The notes under the pieces are model-generated. The model was given only the letters and a program-made list of their open reading frames with translations, did no database searches and had not been told where the DNA came from. A stretch of DNA of 49,029 nucleotides from Alphaproteobacteria bacterium (GTDB lineage: Bacteria; Pseudomonadota; Alphaproteobacteria; Acetobacterales; Acetobacteraceae): NCBI GenBank assembly GCA_017307335.1, contig JAFKFJ010000186.1, positions 1-49,029 of the forward strand, in the 5' to 3' direction. Of this stretch, positions 2,745 to 13,387 are shown piece after piece. A program made the position numbers and the translations under genes. Each line of letters begins with the position of its first letter. The stretch's first letter is position 1.

Positions 2745-5700
2745 ATGGAGGTCCCGGAAGTCGGCGACTGGCTCGACACGCTTGGTCTCGGCCAGTTCAC
2801 GCGCGCTTTTATCGACCAGCAGATCGACGGCGAGGCGCTGCTCGACCTCACCGACGCCGATTTGCAGTCACTCGGCCTGCCGCTCGGGCCGCGCCGGCGG
2901 CTGCTGCGCGCGATTGCCGAGCTACGCGAGCGCTCGGCCACGCCGCCGGTGGCCGCCGGGGTGGCGCGGCCGTTCGCCGAGCGGCGCAATCTCACCGTCC
3001 TGGTCTGCGACCTTGTCGACTCGACCGTGCTCGCGACGCGCCTCGACCCGGAGGAGCTGCACGTCGTCCTGCACGCCTACATGGAGGTCTGGACCCGCGC
3101 CGTGATCGAGTTCGGCGGCTACGTCGCCAAGTACCAGGGCGACGGGCTCATGGCCTATTTCGGCTATCCTCGGGCACATGAGGACGCGGCCGAACGGGCC
3201 GTGCGCACCGCCCTGCGCCTCGTGGCGGCGGCTGGCGCGGTGCCGGCGGTCGGCGGCACGCGGTTGCAGACCCGCGTGGGCGTTGCCACCGGCCTTGCCG
3301 TCGTGGGCGACCTGATCGGCGAGGGGGCGGCGCGGGAGGAAGCGGTCGTCGGCGAGTCCCCCGCCCTCGCGACACGCCTGCAGTCCCTCGCGCCGCCGGA
3401 CGGCATCGTGATCGCCCAGGCGACGCGGGAGCTGCTCGGCCACGTCTTCATCCTGGAGCCGCTCGGTCCGCTCGCGCTGGAAGGGTTCGCGCGCCCGCAG
3501 GAGGCCTGGCGCGTCACCGGCGAGGCGCACCCGGAGAGCCGTTTCGCCGCCGTCCATGACGGTGCGGCGGGTGTGCTGGAGGGGCGGGATTCCGAGCTGG
3601 CGATCCTGCTCGCGCGCTGGGGGCTTGCCGCCGAGGGGCAGGGGCAGGTGGTGTTGCTGTCCGGCGAGCCGGGGCTGGGCAAGTCGCGGCTGGTCGAGGC
3701 GCTGCGGGAACAGCTTGCCGGTGGGCCGCAGCTCGTCACGCTGCTGCAATGCGCCGCGCACACCCAGGCCAGCGCGCTGCGCCCGGTGATCGGATGGGTC
3801 GAGCGCGCAGCCGGCCTCCTGCCCGAGGACGCGGTCGCGGCGCGGCGCCGCCGGCTCGGCGGACTCCCCGGCGTCTCGGCCGAGGCCGATCAGGTGCTCG
3901 CCGAGCTGCTGGCGCTTGCCGACCGCGCCGAGCCGATCGGCCGGCAGGAGCGGCGGGAGCGGACGCTGGCGGCCCTCACCGGGCTTCTGACCCATGCGCT
4001 GCCCGAGCAGCCGCGCCTGCTCGTGCTGGAGGACGTGCACTGGAGCGATGCGTTCACGCTCGACCTGCTGGAGCGGATCGTCGCCGCTGCCGCGGCGCGT
4101 CCCCTGATGCTGCTGGTGACGGCGCGCCCCGAGGCGGAGCTGTCGTGGGCCGGCGGCGCCGATGTCACCACGATCACCCTCGACCGCCTGGAGCCGCCGT
4201 ACGCCGCGCGCATCGTGCAGCGGCTGGGGGCGGAGCGGCTCGCTCCGGAGCTGTGCACGCGCATCGTCGAGCGGGCCGAGGGCGTGCCGCTGTTCCTTGA
4301 ACAGCTCACGCGCTCGCTGCTGGAGGCGGGGGACCGCAGCACGCCGGTCCCGGCGACGCTCCAGGACGTGCTGATGGCACGGCTCGACCGGCTGCGCTCG
4401 GCCAAAGCGGTGGCGCAGATTGCCGCGGTGCTGGGCCGGGAATTCGACTTCCGCCTGCTCGCCGCCTGCACCGGTCTTGACGAGCCGAACCTGCGCGAAG
4501 CGCTCGCCGAACTGGTGGTCTCGGGTCTTGCCCAGGTGCAGGGCGAGCCGCCGGAGGCCGTCTATTCGTTCAAGCACACGCTGGTGCAGGACGCCGCCTA
4601 TCACTCGATGCTGCGGGCCGAGCGGCGCCGGCTGCACGGCGAGATCGCGCAGCTCATCGAGCAGCGTTTCGCGCGGATCGCGGACGTGCAGCCGGAACTC
4701 GTCGCCCACCACTACACCGAGGCCGGCGCGGCCGTGCCCGCGATCGCGTGGTGGGAGCGGGCCGCCGGGCGCGCCTGGGCGGCGGCGGCGGCGGCCGAGG
4801 CCGTGCGCCACCTGCAGAGTGCGCTCGTGCTGCTCGCGACCCAGCCGGATGACCCGGCGCGGGCGCAGCGGGAGATCGGGCTGCGCCGGCTGCTGGTGGG
4901 GCCGCTGGTCAATCTCGGCGGCTACAGCTCGCCGGACACGGAGGCGAATCTCGACCGGCTCGGCCTGCTCCTGGAAGACGCGCCGGCGAACGTTGAGGGC
5001 GTGGTGCTGCTCTATACGCAGTCCGCGATGCGCCTGCTGCGCTCCGATCTGGACCGCGCGGAGGAGGCGGGGTGGCGCACGCTGCGCGTCGCCCGCCGGT
5101 CGGGGGTCGTGAACGCGGCGATGCTCGGCCAGCGGATCATCGGCTACGCGGCACTGCTGCGCGGTGACATGGCGCGCGCCGGCGAATGGTTCGCGGTCTC
5201 GTTCCGCGAATACGATCCCGCGGTCAACCGCACGGTCTGGCCCGCCTCGCCGCATGACCCGCTGGCCAGCATGCTGGCGCAGGACATGCTGCTGCTGATC
5301 CAGCAGGGGCGGCTGGCCGAGGCCGCGCGGCGCGGGGCGGAGGCCGTCGCGGAGGCCGAGCGGCTGCAGTCGCCGACCACGCTCGGCTATGTCTTGGCGC
5401 ATCTCGGCCTCGCGGCCCTCGTCACCGGCGATGCCGCCGCCGCCGCGCCGGTGGCGCCGCGTCTCGCCGCGGTGGTCGATCGCGTGGCCTGGCTGCGCGC
5501 CCATGCCGAGGTGCTCGGCGGCTGGCTGCAGGCGGAGGGCGGCGCGCTCGATGCCGGGCTCGCGCAGATGCGCTTCGGCCGGGAGGTCGCGGAGCGCATC
5601 CAGGACCGCATGTGGTGGCCGTTGTTCATGCTGCGCGAGGTCGCGCTGCTGATCGCGCACGGGCGCGCCGTGGCGGCGCTTGCCGCGGTGGACGAGGCCG

Positions 5701-8013: not shown

Positions 8014-9765
8014 ATGCCGAACCAGAGCGGCAATCCCAAGGTGACCATCGCCGGGGCCGGCGTCGCCGGGCTTGCCGCCGCGCACCGGCTGCTGGAGCGC
8101 AACTACGACGTGACGCTGCTCGAGGCCGATGCGTTCTTCGGCGGCAAGCTCGGCGCGCACCGCGATGTCGGCGTGGATGCGCCTGACCACGACCGGCCCG
8201 CCAGGACCTGCCCCGCCTGCGCGGCGCAGGGCGGCTGCCTCGGCCGGCAGGACTGGCACGAGCATTGTTACCACATGTATTTGAACTGGTATCACAATTT
8301 CTGGGCGCTGATGGACGAGATCGGGGCGCTCGACAATTTCCGGCCGGCGTCGACGGTCTACAACATGTATCCGCGGGCGCCGGACGCGGCGTCGTCGCCG
8401 GCACTGCCGATGGTCAATGTCGGTTCGCCCTGGACGGTGCTCGCCAACATGCGTGCCGGCGTCGGCACACCGCTTGACATACTCCTGTGGGGCCAAGCCC
8501 TGCTCGATCTGGCGGCGGCGCCGGAGCGCCAGGGGCCGATGCTGGAGCGGACCAGCGTTACCGCCTTCATGCAGGCGCTGCCCTATGCGACGGACCAAGC
8601 CCTCGCCGGCACGTACCGCACCACGGCGCAGGCCTTCGCCTCGCCCAGCTACCTGAGCTCGGCCCGCAGCTATCGCGCCCTTCTGAGTTATGGGCTGCGC
8701 CTGCCGGAGCCGAGCATGTGGCTGCTCGCGGCGAGCACCGAGCAGGGGATCTTCACCCCGTGGCTTGCGCATCTCGCCCGCATCGCCCGCCACGTCGAGA
8801 TCAATCCGAGCGGGATGCTCCCACCCGCGCCAGAGGGGGGCGGGCGCGGCGGGAACCTGACCGTGAAGATGCTAACGCCGCTTCAGCAGATCCATCTCGA
8901 TCCGCGCACCGGGCGCGTGACGCGCGTCGACGTCGCGGAATGCAAGATCTCACCCTCCGTGCACCGCAGCAAGTGGAAGGTGAAGTCGGGCTCGAAGCAG
9001 TCGCTGCCGATCGAAGGCGACCTGATCCTCGCCCTGCCGCCGGATGAGCTGAGCTGGATGGTGCGGCCGGACGTGGCGCGCCGAGCGCCGGAGCTGGCCA
9101 ATGCGCGCTACTTGCGCTGCGAGCCGATGATGTCGATCGACCTGTTCTTCAAGCGCAGGCTGGAAGGCCTGCCCAACGGAATCACGGTCCTGCTCGACTC
9201 GCGCTACCAGATGAGCTTTCTCGACACGTCGCAGGCGTGGCGCTACCTCGCGGGCGGCAACACCGTGCTCAACGTGGTGGCGTCGGATGCCGACACGCTG
9301 GCCGCCCGCTTCTACGCCGACAACGACATCATCGGGCTGCTGCTCCGCGAGCTGCAACGCTATGTCGCGTTCACCCCGGAGACGGACCTGTTCACGTGCC
9401 GCACGCACCTGGAGACCAACGTGGGCGAACGGCTGTTCGTCAACCAGGTTGGAAGCTGGCAGTGGCGGCCGGAGACGACGTGCGGCATTCCCAACCTCTA
9501 CATCGCGGGCGACCACTGCAAGACCGTCATCGACGTCGTCACGGTGGAGGGGGCGGTTGTCAGCGGGCTGATGGCGGCGGAGGCGGTGCGCCGGCGCCAC
9601 GGGCACGGGCGCCCGATCGACATCCGCGTGCCTGACCAGTATCCGGTTGCGGCGCTCGGGGCGCTGGCGGCGGCGCAGCGACCGTTTGCCTATTTCGCCC
9701 GTGCCCTCGCCGCCGGCGATTCGGCGCTGCGGCGCGGCTATCGTCAGTGGTTTCCCAACGGATAG
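8014..9765 (+). CDS. FAD-dependent oxidoreductase, phytoene-desaturase/amine-oxidase-like
   Basis: Flavoprotein of the phytoene-desaturase/amine-oxidase superfamily, 583 residues. The N-terminal dinucleotide-binding fold has GAGVAG (14-19) and the ribose-binding acidic residue E37 followed by GGK. The C-terminal FAD segment reads NLYIAGDHCKTV. Relatives desaturate or isomerise isoprenoids or oxidise amines. The neighbouring prenyl synthase favours an isoprenoid or lipid substrate. Residues C66, C69 and C75 form a C-x2-C-x5-C cluster in a loop rich in His and Cys (C85, H82, H84, H87), which could bind a metal. The start is fixed by an AGGAGGT ribosome-binding site (8000-8006) just before the ATG at 8014. 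The gene is divergent from the helical-protein operon, and its last 22 bases overlap the convergent decarboxylase-like gene. Confidence 0.85.
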   Translation: MPNQSGNPKVTIAGAGVAGLAAAHRLLERNYDVTLLEADAFFGGKLGAHRDVGVDAPDHDRPARTCPACAAQGGCLGRQDWHEHCYHMYLNWYHNFWALMDEIGALDNFRPASTVYNMYPRAPDAASSPALPMVNVGSPWTVLANMRAGVGTPLDILLWGQALLDLAAAPERQGPMLERTSVTAFMQALPYATDQALAGTYRTTAQAFASPSYLSSARSYRALLSYGLRLPEPSMWLLAASTEQGIFTPWLAHLARIARHVEINPSGMLPPAPEGGGRGGNLTVKMLTPLQQIHLDPRTGRVTRVDVAECKISPSVHRSKWKVKSGSKQSLPIEGDLILALPPDELSWMVRPDVARRAPELANARYLRCEPMMSIDLFFKRRLEGLPNGITVLLDSRYQMSFLDTSQAWRYLAGGNTVLNVVASDADTLAARFYADNDIIGLLLRELQRYVAFTPETDLFTCRTHLETNVGERLFVNQVGSWQWRPETTCGIPNLYIAGDHCKTVIDVVTVEGAVVSGLMAAEAVRRRHGHGRPIDIRVPDQYPVAALGALAAAQRPFAYFARALAAGDSALRRGYRQWFPNG

Positions 9766-10928
9766 GGCCCGAGCGGCCCGGGCGCCATCAGCGCGCCGTG
9801 CATGCGCTCGCTCCATCCGTTCGCCGCCGGAAGCACTTGGTCCACCCCGAGCGCGCGCAACTGCGCGCAGAGACAGACGGCACGGTCCCCGGCGCAGAAG
9901 CATGAGCCCTTCGCACCCTCGTTCGCCAGGGTGCCGAGCTGCAGCCGGACCGGGCCGCCGACCTGCACCCCCTCGCCGCTGCCGCTGCGGTCGAGAACCG
10001 CGCGCACCGGCCCGGCGAGCCCGTCTTCCGCGGCGGCCTCGCGTAGCGAGTAGATCACCAGCGGCACGCCGTGCGACCGCGCGGTGCCGAAGCGCGGCAC
10101 GGTGAAGACGAAATCGCCCTCGTCGCCCTCGGCGGTGTGGAATCGCACCGCGGCCTTGCCGTACTGGACCTGCAGGTCCGGGCAGAAATCCTTCTTCAGG
10201 CCCCAGATGCGGCGGGCCGGTTCGAGGGAGAAGGCATCGCTCACGATCAGCCGTGCGAACAGCGTGCCGGGGGCGGCTGCCGCCGATCCGCGCGGCGTGA
10301 GACAGAGCGCCAGCGCGATCTCCCGATACCGGCCGAAGTCGCTGACCCGATAGTCGACGCCGAGCAGCACCACCAGGCCGCGCCCGTGGCCGCAATCGAG
10401 CGGCTCGAACGCTTCCAGCAGCCGCGTGTCGCCGCGGGCGATCTCGGCCATCAGCGCGGCCAACTTCGCCACCGGCGCGAACCATGCGGCCCAGCCCTGC
10501 GAGGCGTCGAGCACACGCGCCGGCACGACGAACGGCACGGGCACGCCGGCCTTGCCGAGCTGCCACACGCCGCCCATCGCCGCCGGCCTGCTGTCGCCGA
10601 TCGGCACCTGATAGGCGCTCAGCAGGTCCTCCGGCACGCTGCGCAGCCGCGCGGTCATGCCCTCGATCGCGGTCGGCACCACGGCGAGCAGGCCGCCCAG
10701 CAGGTTGGCGTATTCCTCGGCGCAGTCGGCCAGGAGGCGCTCGGCGCTCCATTGCCCGAGCAACCCCTCCAACGAGCGGCGGCTGGACCGGCGCAGCGCA
10801 TCGGCCGCGAGGCGCCAGGGCCGGCTCAGCACCTCGTCGCCAGCGCGCAGATACGTGTCGAGCAGGCGATAGAGGTCGAGCGTCGTCAAGCGCGGCTCAA
10901 GAACGGGGTGGCTCCGGTGCGGCGGCAT
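9744..10928 (-). CDS. Acetoacetate decarboxylase-like protein with helical N-terminal extension
   Basis: Protein of 394 residues with two parts. Residues about 15-98 are helical, with alternating Arg/Leu/Ala (AADALRRSSRRSLEGLL), and resemble the phasin-like proteins next door. Residues about 105-394 resemble the acetoacetate decarboxylase superfamily. The region with YREIALAL and later SDAF, IWGLKKD gives a Lys pair (K245-K246) at the place of the catalytic Schiff-base lysine and its neighbour. True acetoacetate decarboxylase removes CO2 from acetoacetate, but many superfamily members act on other keto acids or are uncharacterised, so the reaction is open. The start ATG at 10928 has a GAGGGAG ribosome-binding site; the longer frame to 10967 does not look needed. 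The gene converges with the FAD oxidoreductase (22-base overlap) and faces the same cluster. Confidence 0.75.
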   Translation of the reverse strand: MPPHRSHPVLEPRLTTLDLYRLLDTYLRAGDEVLSRPWRLAADALRRSSRRSLEGLLGQWSAERLLADCAEEYANLLGGLLAVVPTAIEGMTARLRSVPEDLLSAYQVPIGDSRPAAMGGVWQLGKAGVPVPFVVPARVLDASQGWAAWFAPVAKLAALMAEIARGDTRLLEAFEPLDCGHGRGLVVLLGVDYRVSDFGRYREIALALCLTPRGSAAAAPGTLFARLIVSDAFSLEPARRIWGLKKDFCPDLQVQYGKAAVRFHTAEGDEGDFVFTVPRFGTARSHGVPLVIYSLREAAAEDGLAGPVRAVLDRSGSGEGVQVGGPVRLQLGTLANEGAKGSCFCAGDRAVCLCAQLRALGVDQVLPAANGWSERMHGALMAPGPLGPYPLGNH

Positions 10929-11101
10929 GGTGCGGCTCCCTCGCTCGGGGCGGATCGGCTTGGGCAAGCTCAGTGTGCAACCCGCTGAAGGAGCAGAGTC
11001 CCTGGGTTGAGCCGGCCTCAGTGCCGCCCCTCGCTCCGGACGGCAGCAAAACGACGCCAGACCCGGCGAACGCGATCGCGCGCCTTGTGGCGCGGCTCAT
11101 A

Positions 11102-11932
11102 TCACTTAGCCGGGAACGGCAACTCCGGCACGAACTTGAACGGATAGTCCGGCTCCCGGTAGCCGTGTGGATCCTGCCGCTTGGGCAGCTTCACCTTCTC
11201 GCGCGGCAGTGACTCGTAGGGCACCCGGCTCAGCAGGTGGTTGATAATGTTGAGCCTCGCCCGCCGCTTGTCGTCCGAGCGTGCGACGAACCAGGGCGCC
11301 CATGCCGTGTCGGTGGCCGCGAACATCGCATCGCGCGCGCGCGAGTAGTCGTACCAGCGGTTATAGGACCTGAGGTCCATCGGCGAGAGTTTCCAGATCT
11401 TGCGACCATCATCGATGCGCGCCTCCATCCGCCGGGCCTGCTCCTCCTGACTGACCTCGAGCCAATATTTTGTGAGGAGGATGCCGGAATCGACCATCGC
11501 CTTCTCCACCCCGGGCGTCATGTGCAGAAAGCGTTCGACGATCTCCTCGGAGCAGAATCCCATGACGCGCTCGACCCCGGCGCGATTGTACCAACTCCGA
11601 TCGAAGATCACGACCTCGCCGGCCGCCGGCAGGTGCGGCAGGTAGCGCTGGATGTACATCTGGGACTTCTCGCGTTCGGTTGGCGCTGGCAGCGCCACCA
11701 CGCGGAATATGCGCGGGCTGACCCGCTCCGTGATCGCCTTGATCGTTCCGCCCTTGCCGGCACCGTCGCGACCCTCGAACAGGACGCAGACCTTCAGTCC
11801 CTTGTGCACCACCCACTGCTGCAGCTTGACCAATTCGACATGCAGGCGCGCGAGTTCCTTGTCGTACGCGCCCCGCTTGAGCTTTCCGTTTGGCTCCGCC
11901 GCCGCCTTCTGCGCCTTCTTCTCCGTCGACAT
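11102..11932 (-). CDS. ppk2: Polyphosphate kinase 2 family protein
   Basis: PPK2 family kinase that moves phosphate between polyphosphate and nucleotides, usually making NTPs from NDPs or AMP at the cost of polyphosphate. A single-domain form of 276 residues with Walker A GRDGAGKGG (54-62), the Walker B-like segment VVIFDRSWYNR (107-117) and a basic lid region around residues 190-215 (ARRMEARI, GRKIWKLS). The start at 11932 has a good AAGGGGGGAG ribosome-binding site; the frame upstream to 12043 overlaps the preceding gene and is not used. It lies 25 bases after an unknown coiled-coil gene on the same strand, and the pair probably share the promoter with an FNR-type box near 12.56 kb. Nucleotide preference (class I, II or III) is not decided here. 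Confidence 0.92.
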   Translation of the reverse strand: MSTEKKAQKAAAEPNGKLKRGAYDKELARLHVELVKLQQWVVHKGLKVCVLFEGRDGAGKGGTIKAITERVSPRIFRVVALPAPTEREKSQMYIQRYLPHLPAAGEVVIFDRSWYNRAGVERVMGFCSEEIVERFLHMTPGVEKAMVDSGILLTKYWLEVSQEEQARRMEARIDDGRKIWKLSPMDLRSYNRWYDYSRARDAMFAATDTAWAPWFVARSDDKRRARLNIINHLLSRVPYESLPREKVKLPKRQDPHGYREPDYPFKFVPELPFPAK

Positions 11933-11957: not shown

Positions 11958-12479
11958 CTAAAGCTGTCCTTCGGCTGCGCTCTTGGGCCAGGAGAGCACG
12001 AGGCCGATATCGCCCGGCACACCGCCCGGAAAACTGAGGACACGGGCGCCGAGCGAGAAGCCGCCCGGCTTCAGGTGCTTCTCCCAGTATTCATAGACCG
12101 GCCGGGTGCCCTTGGGCATGGTCGCGAGCCATTCCGGTTCCCGCGGTTTGGCAGCCCCTTCCGCGTCGTCCGGCCTGTTGATCGGTGGGAGACCCGCGTT
12201 GTTCACCGCGCGTCCGTTGTCCGTGCAGAAACTGCTCGGGAAAGATGTCAGCATCAGCTCCGTCTCGCCGCGGTCGAAGGCGCGGCGGATCCTCTCCTGC
12301 AACGCCTGCACGCGCGCCTCGGTGACCTCGAAATCGTCCAGGCGCTGTTTGAATGCGGCAAGCTCTTCGGCCTGCTTGCGCTGAAGCTGCTCCTCGGCCT
12401 CCCGCTCCCGCTGGCGTCGCGCCGCGCGCTCGGCGAACAAGTCGGACACAGATAGACTTGGGGCTGGGGCATCGGACAT
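11958..12479 (-). CDS. Coiled-coil protein of unknown function upstream of ppk2
   Basis: A 173-residue protein I do not recognise. Residues about 10-70 form a charged Arg/Glu/Gln-rich coiled coil (RQREREAEEQLQRKQAEELA). The second half is a compact domain with ELMLTSFPSSFCTDNGRAVNN and a C-terminal stretch with PVYEYWEKHLKP and GGVPGDIGLVLSWP. It has no signal peptide or membrane helix, so it is probably cytoplasmic. It is the first gene of the unit with ppk2 (25-base gap), so a partner role in polyphosphate or nucleotide metabolism under low oxygen is possible. That is inferred from position and the upstream FNR-type site only. Confidence 0.78.
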   Translation of the reverse strand: MSDAPAPSLSVSDLFAERAARRQREREAEEQLQRKQAEELAAFKQRLDDFEVTEARVQALQERIRRAFDRGETELMLTSFPSSFCTDNGRAVNNAGLPPINRPDDAEGAAKPREPEWLATMPKGTRPVYEYWEKHLKPGGFSLGARVLSFPGGVPGDIGLVLSWPKSAAEGQL

Positions 12480-12531
12480 GCGATCTCTCCCGCTCGGCGG
12501 ACACCTCGGATATCCGCATCATCGCGGGTGG

Positions 12532-12537
12532 ACTGTA
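12532..12537 (-). promoter_or_regulatory. Candidate -10 element for the coiled-coil/ppk2 operon
   Basis: On the minus strand this hexamer reads TACAGT, a 4 of 6 match to TATAAT. It would place the transcription start near 12525, about 45 bases before the coiled-coil gene start. The FNR-type palindrome at 12559-12572 would then be centred close to -41, the usual spacing for class II activation. No good -35 box is needed in that arrangement. Confidence 0.4.
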
Positions 12538-12558
12538 CCGCGTCACTGTTGGGCGACC

Positions 12559-12572
12559 TTGACGCAGGTCAA
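12559..12572. promoter_or_regulatory. FNR/FixK-type operator (TTGAC-N4-GTCAA)
   Basis: The 14 bases TTGACGCAGGTCAA form a perfect interrupted palindrome of the CRP/FNR-family type TTGA-N6-TCAA, bound in alphaproteobacteria by FNR, FixK or NnrR/Dnr regulators under low oxygen or nitric oxide. It lies between the divergent ppk2 and marC units. Its centre is about 41 bases upstream of the predicted ppk2-side start, so activation of that operon fits best. Relative to marC it is only 36 bases before the ATG at 12608. Confidence 0.6.
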
Positions 12573-12607
12573 TCGGGGTGAGGCGGGAGTCTGAAAGGGT
12601 AGACTCC

Positions 12608-13387
12608 ATGCACAAGGGGTTGCAGGGCACCGGGTGGACGGCAGCACGTGCCCGCGCGCCGGCGAGCGTGCCGCCGGCATCGTTCCGCTGCGCCGCCAGG
12701 GCGGCGCTGCTGCTCAGCCTTGTGCCGATGTCGGCGCGGGCCGGAGTGAGCTCGGTGACCGGGATTCAGCCGCTCGACTGGCAGACGATCTTCGCGCTGT
12801 TGTTTCTCATGCTGGGCCCGATCAAGATCCTCGGCCCCTTCGTCGCCATGACGCAGGGAACGGAGCCGGTGTTCCAACGCCGGCTCGCGACGCGGGCCTT
12901 CCTGTTTTCGGTCGCGGCGGTGGCGATCGCGGCGGGAATGGGCCGGCGGATGCTGGCGAGCTTCGCTATTCCGCTGCAGGTGCTCGTGCTCACCGGCGGG
13001 CTGATCCTGTTTCTCGTCGCGTTGCAGCAGGTGCTGCAGCAGTACAGCGTCCGCCCACTAGTGCGGACGGAGCCGCCGACCTTCGCGCTGGCCTTCACCC
13101 CACTTGCGTTTCCGACGATCGTGACGCCATACGGGATCGCCGCAGTGATCATCTTCATGGCAGTCGCTCCCGATGCGACGGCTAGCGCCATTGTCGCGGG
13201 CCTCGTGCTGCTCGTGCTCGCGCTTGACTGGGTGGCGATGCTGTTCGCCCACACGGTGATCCGCTGGCTGGGGGCGGTGCTACAACTGTTCGGAGTAGTA
13301 TTGGGCGTGACGCAGGTGGCGCTGGGGCTCGAGATCATACTCAGGAGTCTTGGGCGTCTCGGCATGGTCGAGGCAGGTGGGCCATAG
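12608..13387 (+). CDS. MarC/NAAT family integral membrane protein
   Basis: Inner-membrane protein of the MarC (UPF0056) family, function still unclear despite old links to multidrug resistance. After a basic, signal-like N-terminus (residues 1-45) come six likely membrane helices. The family-typical first helix reads LFLMLGPIKILGPF, where relatives have an N-P-x-G block, and a later helix carries LVLTGGLILFLVALQ. At 259 residues from the ATG it is slightly longer than typical members (about 200-220) because of the N-terminal extension. A GTG at 12578 in the same frame is the alternative start. The SYLF gene follows 15 bases later and is probably co-transcribed. Confidence 0.82.
   Translation: MHKGLQGTGWTAARARAPASVPPASFRCAARAALLLSLVPMSARAGVSSVTGIQPLDWQTIFALLFLMLGPIKILGPFVAMTQGTEPVFQRRLATRAFLFSVAAVAIAAGMGRRMLASFAIPLQVLVLTGGLILFLVALQQVLQQYSVRPLVRTEPPTFALAFTPLAFPTIVTPYGIAAVIIFMAVAPDATASAIVAGLVLLVLALDWVAMLFAHTVIRWLGAVLQLFGVVLGVTQVALGLEIILRSLGRLGMVEAGGP

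Follow-up and report, generated by a model that had tools for sequence, protein, structure and literature searches.

Control of ppk2 by an FNR-type regulator is not new in kind, since a link between FnrL and ppk2 has been published for Rhodobacter capsulatus (PMC4634722). In the accessible part of that work, ChIP-seq places FnrL upstream of the ppk2 gene RCC02684, which has the box TTGATGCGTGTCAA and is activated 2.25-fold; the FnrL table also contains pyrB, with a site that lies inside the gene (PMC4634722). For R. sphaeroides, FnrL ChIP-seq is said, in the available section of the paper, to reach polyphosphate-dependent phosphorylation (PMC4263372). A ChIP-chip peak of the same regulator at RSP2573 contains the 14-mer TTGACgcagGTCAA and, in the portion of the source that includes Table 2, RSP2573 is not described as ppk2 (PMC2908626). 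In an excerpt of PMC9611204, two ppk2 proteins of R. etli are listed, one for bacteroids, the other for minimal medium. In the open-access papers searched we found no title or abstract start that ties FixK to ppk2. PA0141 of Pseudomonas aeruginosa is presumably the ppk2 gene of that organism. It appears among the Anr regulon genes in the accessible text of PMC8087004, where it is called a hypothetical protein, and in this membership it resembles the locus described below. Unlike that locus, the Pseudomonas ppk2 genes that we compared (L087, L094, L096, L097 and L099) lack a box within 394 upstream bases even when one mismatch is allowed.

The DNA stretch analysed here (the window, 49,029 nucleotides of a contig from a member of the Acetobacteraceae) contains an FNR/FixK-type palindrome that is very probably the activator site of a class II promoter, predicted to be induced at low oxygen, for a two-gene unit of ppk2 and a gene for a protein of 173 amino acids. 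The features are:

11102-11932, minus strand: ppk2, polyphosphate kinase 2 (TIGR03707, 349.7 bits, cut-off 301.8)
11958-12479, minus strand: 173-aa gene, product with a long N-terminal helix and a small mixed domain, no Pfam or NCBIfam model
12525-12526, minus strand: putative transcription start, deduced from the -10-like element TACAGT
12532-12537, minus strand: -10-like element TACAGT, 21 bases past the box
12559-12572, no strand: FNR/FixK-type palindrome TTGACGCAGGTCAA, the sole strict TTGAYNNNNRTCAA site of the window
12608-13387, plus strand: divergent gene for a MarC-family membrane protein (Pfam MarC, 59.6 bits), a possible second target of the box

The box lies in the intergenic region between the MarC-family gene on one side and the 173-aa gene on the other. 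It has the form TTGA(T/C)-N4-(A/G)TCAA, and the perfect CRP/FNR-type palindrome that the initial annotation had read there was borne out. The strict pattern occurs once in the window against a mean of 0.03 in 100 dinucleotide shuffles, and 3 of 100 shuffles contained a site. With the looser query TTGACNNNNGTCAA at up to one mismatch, one match against 0.72 expected is unremarkable. CRP has the half-site consensus TGTGA, and it was rejected as the regulator of this box, which has the half-site TTGAC. The 14-mer is identical to TTGACgcagGTCAA of the R. sphaeroides FnrL regulon, which is also said to reach polyphosphate-dependent phosphorylation, in the accessible parts of the two sources (PMC4263372; PMC2908626). 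The R. capsulatus FnrL regulon shares with the locus an FNR-type box upstream of ppk2 and a box linked to pyrB. It differs in the sequence of the box, in that no 173-aa-type gene is mentioned in the available part of PMC4634722, and in that control of the window's unit is a prediction.

On the minus strand the -10 element proposed earlier was found at 12537-12532. If transcription begins 6-7 bases beyond TACAGT, the start would lie near 12525, which puts the box centre (12565.5) at roughly -40 to -41, with the ATG of the 173-aa gene (12479) about 45 bases downstream. The position of about -41 before the operon, which the initial annotation had assigned to a class II activator, thus agrees with the sequence, given a start that is itself deduced. 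A generic sigma-70 promoter scan and a terminator scan of 12300-12800 found none; for the promoter scan this is unsurprising if the promoter is of class II and lacks a -35 element. The spacing recurs in related promoters. The ppk2/173-aa set contains 31 promoters that carry a strict box, that of the window included. Read in the direction of the gene, 18 of them have TAnnnT at a gap of 21-23 after the box, and each other gap from 8 to 39 has at most one. Counted per genus group, 11 of 19 have the gap of 21-23, and eleven further three-base bins have 0 or 1 each. TACAGT of the window, at gap 21, follows this pattern. The 28 other strict sites of the genome speak against it, with the full TAnnnT at a gap of 20-24 once only; there only the weaker NAnnnT at gap 22 stands out, seen in 8 of 27 promoters and in no more than 3 at any other gap. 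We consider a class II FNR/FixK promoter before the 173-aa gene and ppk2 to be a well supported prediction.

The genes behind the box are as the initial annotation stated, a coiled-coil gene and ppk2: the 173-aa protein has a long N-terminal helix in its structural model, and the ppk2 product matches TIGR03707 above the curated cut-off and Pfam PPK2 with 309.6 bits. Solved relatives of this PPK2 are 5ll0, 4yeg and 3czq. Both genes are on the minus strand with 25 bases between them and would share one transcript. The start codon of the 173-aa gene matches those of its homologues in an alignment. At E 0.001 its product falls into no Pfam or NCBIfam family; at E 1 Pfam gives scattered weak matches, and PDB sequences give three, all with E 0.09 or more. 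The AlphaFold model is of moderate confidence (mean pLDDT 74.6, pTM 0.57). Since Foldseek gave no match against the PDB at E 0.001, and VIA-align 2 a best Z of 4.4 over 44 residues, no fold was assigned. Downstream of ppk2, a protein of about 400 amino acids (9744-10967, minus strand) gave no match at E 0.001 in either Pfam or NCBIfam. The MarC gene at 12608 was absent from the initial annotation. The genome also encodes PPK1, and the ppk1 locus (5022 bases) has no strict box.

Conservation of the two-gene unit and its box is patchy among relatives, and the box is kept in part. One genome of the same genus (G003) keeps the divergent pair of MarC and 173-aa genes with the strict box TTGACGCAGATCAA between them; its ppk2 is on a separate contig and has no box upstream at up to one mismatch. 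In G001, G002 and G004, also of this genus, both the 173-aa gene and a close ppk2 are missing. G006, from the same family, has its 173-aa gene behind a one-mismatch box and beside a divergent neighbour other than MarC, and it has a perfect box before a separate ppk2. Of 387 genomes from the class, 20 encode a member of the 173-aa family, as do 8 of 80 relatives; both counts include the window's genome. At 28 other loci of the family, a strict box precedes the 173-aa gene or a ppk2 just upstream in seven (L006, L009, L014, L174, L175, L176 and L177) and is missing in 21; L007 and L168 have a one-mismatch box. At L009, L167, L168, L169 and L170 the family follows, in one open frame, what appear by eye to be two CBS domains; the box upstream is strict at L009 and has one mismatch at L168.

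When 80 ppk2 loci were taken from across the bacteria, seven of the stretches obtained contained a 173-aa family member, which in six cases was the immediate neighbour of ppk2; all seven are from named alphaproteobacteria. A strict box precedes the ppk2/173-aa unit in five, namely four from Bradyrhizobium and one from Reyranella, and is lacking at L100 and L138. The four Bradyrhizobium loci (L113, L115, L120 and L124) are the closest counterparts. Their gene order is the same, and in all four the strict box precedes the first ATG by 75-80 bases and is followed by TAnnnT at gap 21-22; they differ in the divergent gene and in sequence, with identities of 33-35% for the 173-aa type and 60-62% for PPK2. 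The Reyranella locus runs from acetate kinase, whose end is overlapped by a box, through ppk2, the 173-aa type and a box to MarC; a strict box that belongs to MarC itself lies about 60 bases upstream of this gene. The strict boxes of this region (L116:2763-6210) are at 3941, 5434 and 6230, and the genes before acetate kinase resemble, by eye, phosphate acetyltransferase and fabI. Having a 173-aa family member beside ppk2 is uncommon. When 110 class-wide ppk2 stretches were searched with a profile, no further member turned up; the set omitted five loci that were known to have the family or were the window's own, and 80 of its stretches were limited to 1000 upstream bases and 400 bases of the gene.

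The box is found more widely in front of ppk2 itself. Of 110 stretches of up to 600 bases upstream of alphaproteobacterial ppk2 genes, 17, from 13 genera, contain it in its strict form and the other 93 do not. The same half-sites at six other spacings gave one match in total among these stretches, the reversed pattern none, the first 400 coding bases none, and the region 600-1000 bases upstream one. Twelve of the 17 boxed ppk2 genes are among the 30 best-scoring loci, where four more have a one-mismatch box. Across all bacteria, a strict box lies directly upstream of ppk2 in one of 80 loci (up to 394 bases; two stretches were shorter), a count that misses the four Bradyrhizobium loci because their box sits before the 173-aa-type gene upstream of ppk2. 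The expectation that orthologous promoters carry the same box was borne out in part: it holds for the four Bradyrhizobium loci, Reyranella and others, and fails for ppk2 of G003 and for nearly all ppk2 genes in the all-bacteria set.

The genome is predicted to hold a regulon of this FNR/FixK-type box. It has 29 strict sites in 4.34 Mb and none of the pattern read backwards. Of the 28 sites outside the window, four fall within called open reading frames, with 84% of those stretches called coding (at L070 the ORF caller found none, and the site there is intergenic by default). Genes that adjoin strict sites include ccoN and pyrB (both over the NCBIfam cut-off), the gene of an FNR-like protein, and the divergent pair of ppsA and an Hsp20 gene; another site overlaps the end of a FixL-like gene. 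The 14-mer of the window is also present on contigs C259, C274 (pyrB) and C289 (ppsA/hsp20). On C274 (L066:60-73) it lies about 45 bases before the called pyrB start; on C289 (L071:6169-6236) there are two strict boxes between the phosphoenolpyruvate synthase and Hsp20 genes, one of which is this 14-mer. Suitable regulators, both FNR-like and FixK-like, are encoded. The FNR-like protein (contig C279) has CX2CX7C, a further cysteine and the recognition helix ETVSRT, and we take ETVSR-type helices together with such a set of cysteines to mark FNR. The FixK-like protein (contig C194) has the helix ETVCRT, and its gene adjoins the FixJ-like gene of a FixLJ-like pair. The top NCBIfam models are FnrL (155.9) and FixK (180.7), respectively, both under the cut-off of 300. 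These two proteins are the sole FNR-like and FixK-like ones recognised among the six that were inspected (all but L056) of the seven HTH_Crp_2 matches of the genome.

Since the palindrome is of the type bound by oxygen-sensing regulators and lies at the right distance, the 173-aa gene and ppk2 are probably turned on as oxygen drops. When oxygen falls, the FNR-like regulator, which would carry a [4Fe-4S] cluster, and/or the FixK-like protein, raised by the FixLJ-like pair, would bind the palindrome. Centred near -41, the bound regulator would contact RNA polymerase at the weak -10 element TACAGT. PPK2 could then recharge nucleoside diphosphates from polyphosphate when respiration fails, if the reaction runs in that direction, drawing on polyphosphate stored earlier by PPK1. 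Because PPK1 is encoded, such a store can be expected. The gene order in Reyranella, with acetate kinase beside the ppk2 unit, fits an ATP supply without respiration.

The divergent arrangement raises the question of which gene the box serves. That it acts mainly on the MarC-family gene, or on both genes at once, we regard as rather unlikely. Just 42.5 bases separate the MarC ATG from the box centre, MarC beside the Reyranella ppk2 unit has a strict box of its own, and G003 keeps MarC and the 173-aa gene as a pair around a box. On the other side, a class II start toward MarC would coincide with the MarC ATG itself, and in that direction there is no TAnnnT at gap 21-23 (TAGACT follows at gap 27), in contrast to TACAGT at gap 21 toward ppk2. 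Moreover, the box persists where MarC is replaced by a different divergent gene, with one mismatch before the 173-aa gene of G006 and in its strict form in Bradyrhizobium, which speaks against MarC as the main target.

The signal and the function of the box have also to be weighed. Sites for DNR/NnrR regulators resemble those for FNR and FixK, so the box alone cannot discriminate between nitric oxide and oxygen. The initial annotation had included switching by nitric oxide, and this part found no support: no DNR/NnrR-type regulator was recognised among the six inspected HTH_Crp_2 matches out of seven, and no NirK scored over the cut-off in the genome, in an assembly that is 95.8% complete. With these six regulators and NirK covered, a response to nitric oxide through a DNR/NnrR-type regulator, instead of to oxygen through FNR or FixK, is very improbable. 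Very improbable, too, is a chance match without function. It would agree with the 0.72 matches per window expected for the looser query and with the absence of a box at most ppk2 loci. Against it stand the 0.03 strict matches expected per window, the intergenic position, the equivalent place of the box in G003, and the recurrence of both the box and its spacing to the -10 element in other lineages. A low-oxygen promoter of the 173-aa gene and ppk2 remains the reading that we prefer.

What this locus adds to the published FnrL regulons is the 173-aa gene, a member of a model-less family, which is boxed in the same genus (G003) where ppk2 is not. The 173-aa protein could possibly be a dedicated partner of PPK2, or a polyphosphate handler, and a marker of an alphaproteobacterial low-oxygen polyphosphate module. 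In favour of this tentative reading, the gene adjoins ppk2 in either order, follows CBS-like domains elsewhere, is near acetate kinase in Reyranella, and has a box in G003 though ppk2 is elsewhere. The predicted promoter would extend the FNR-ppk2 link of Rhodobacter to other alphaproteobacteria, including Bradyrhizobium, where its low-oxygen life in root nodules makes the link testable. The 173-aa protein belongs to a family that has no Pfam or NCBIfam model and that, in several genera, stands beside ppk2 and behind an oxygen box; it is a candidate for a missing piece in how cells spend polyphosphate once respiration stops.
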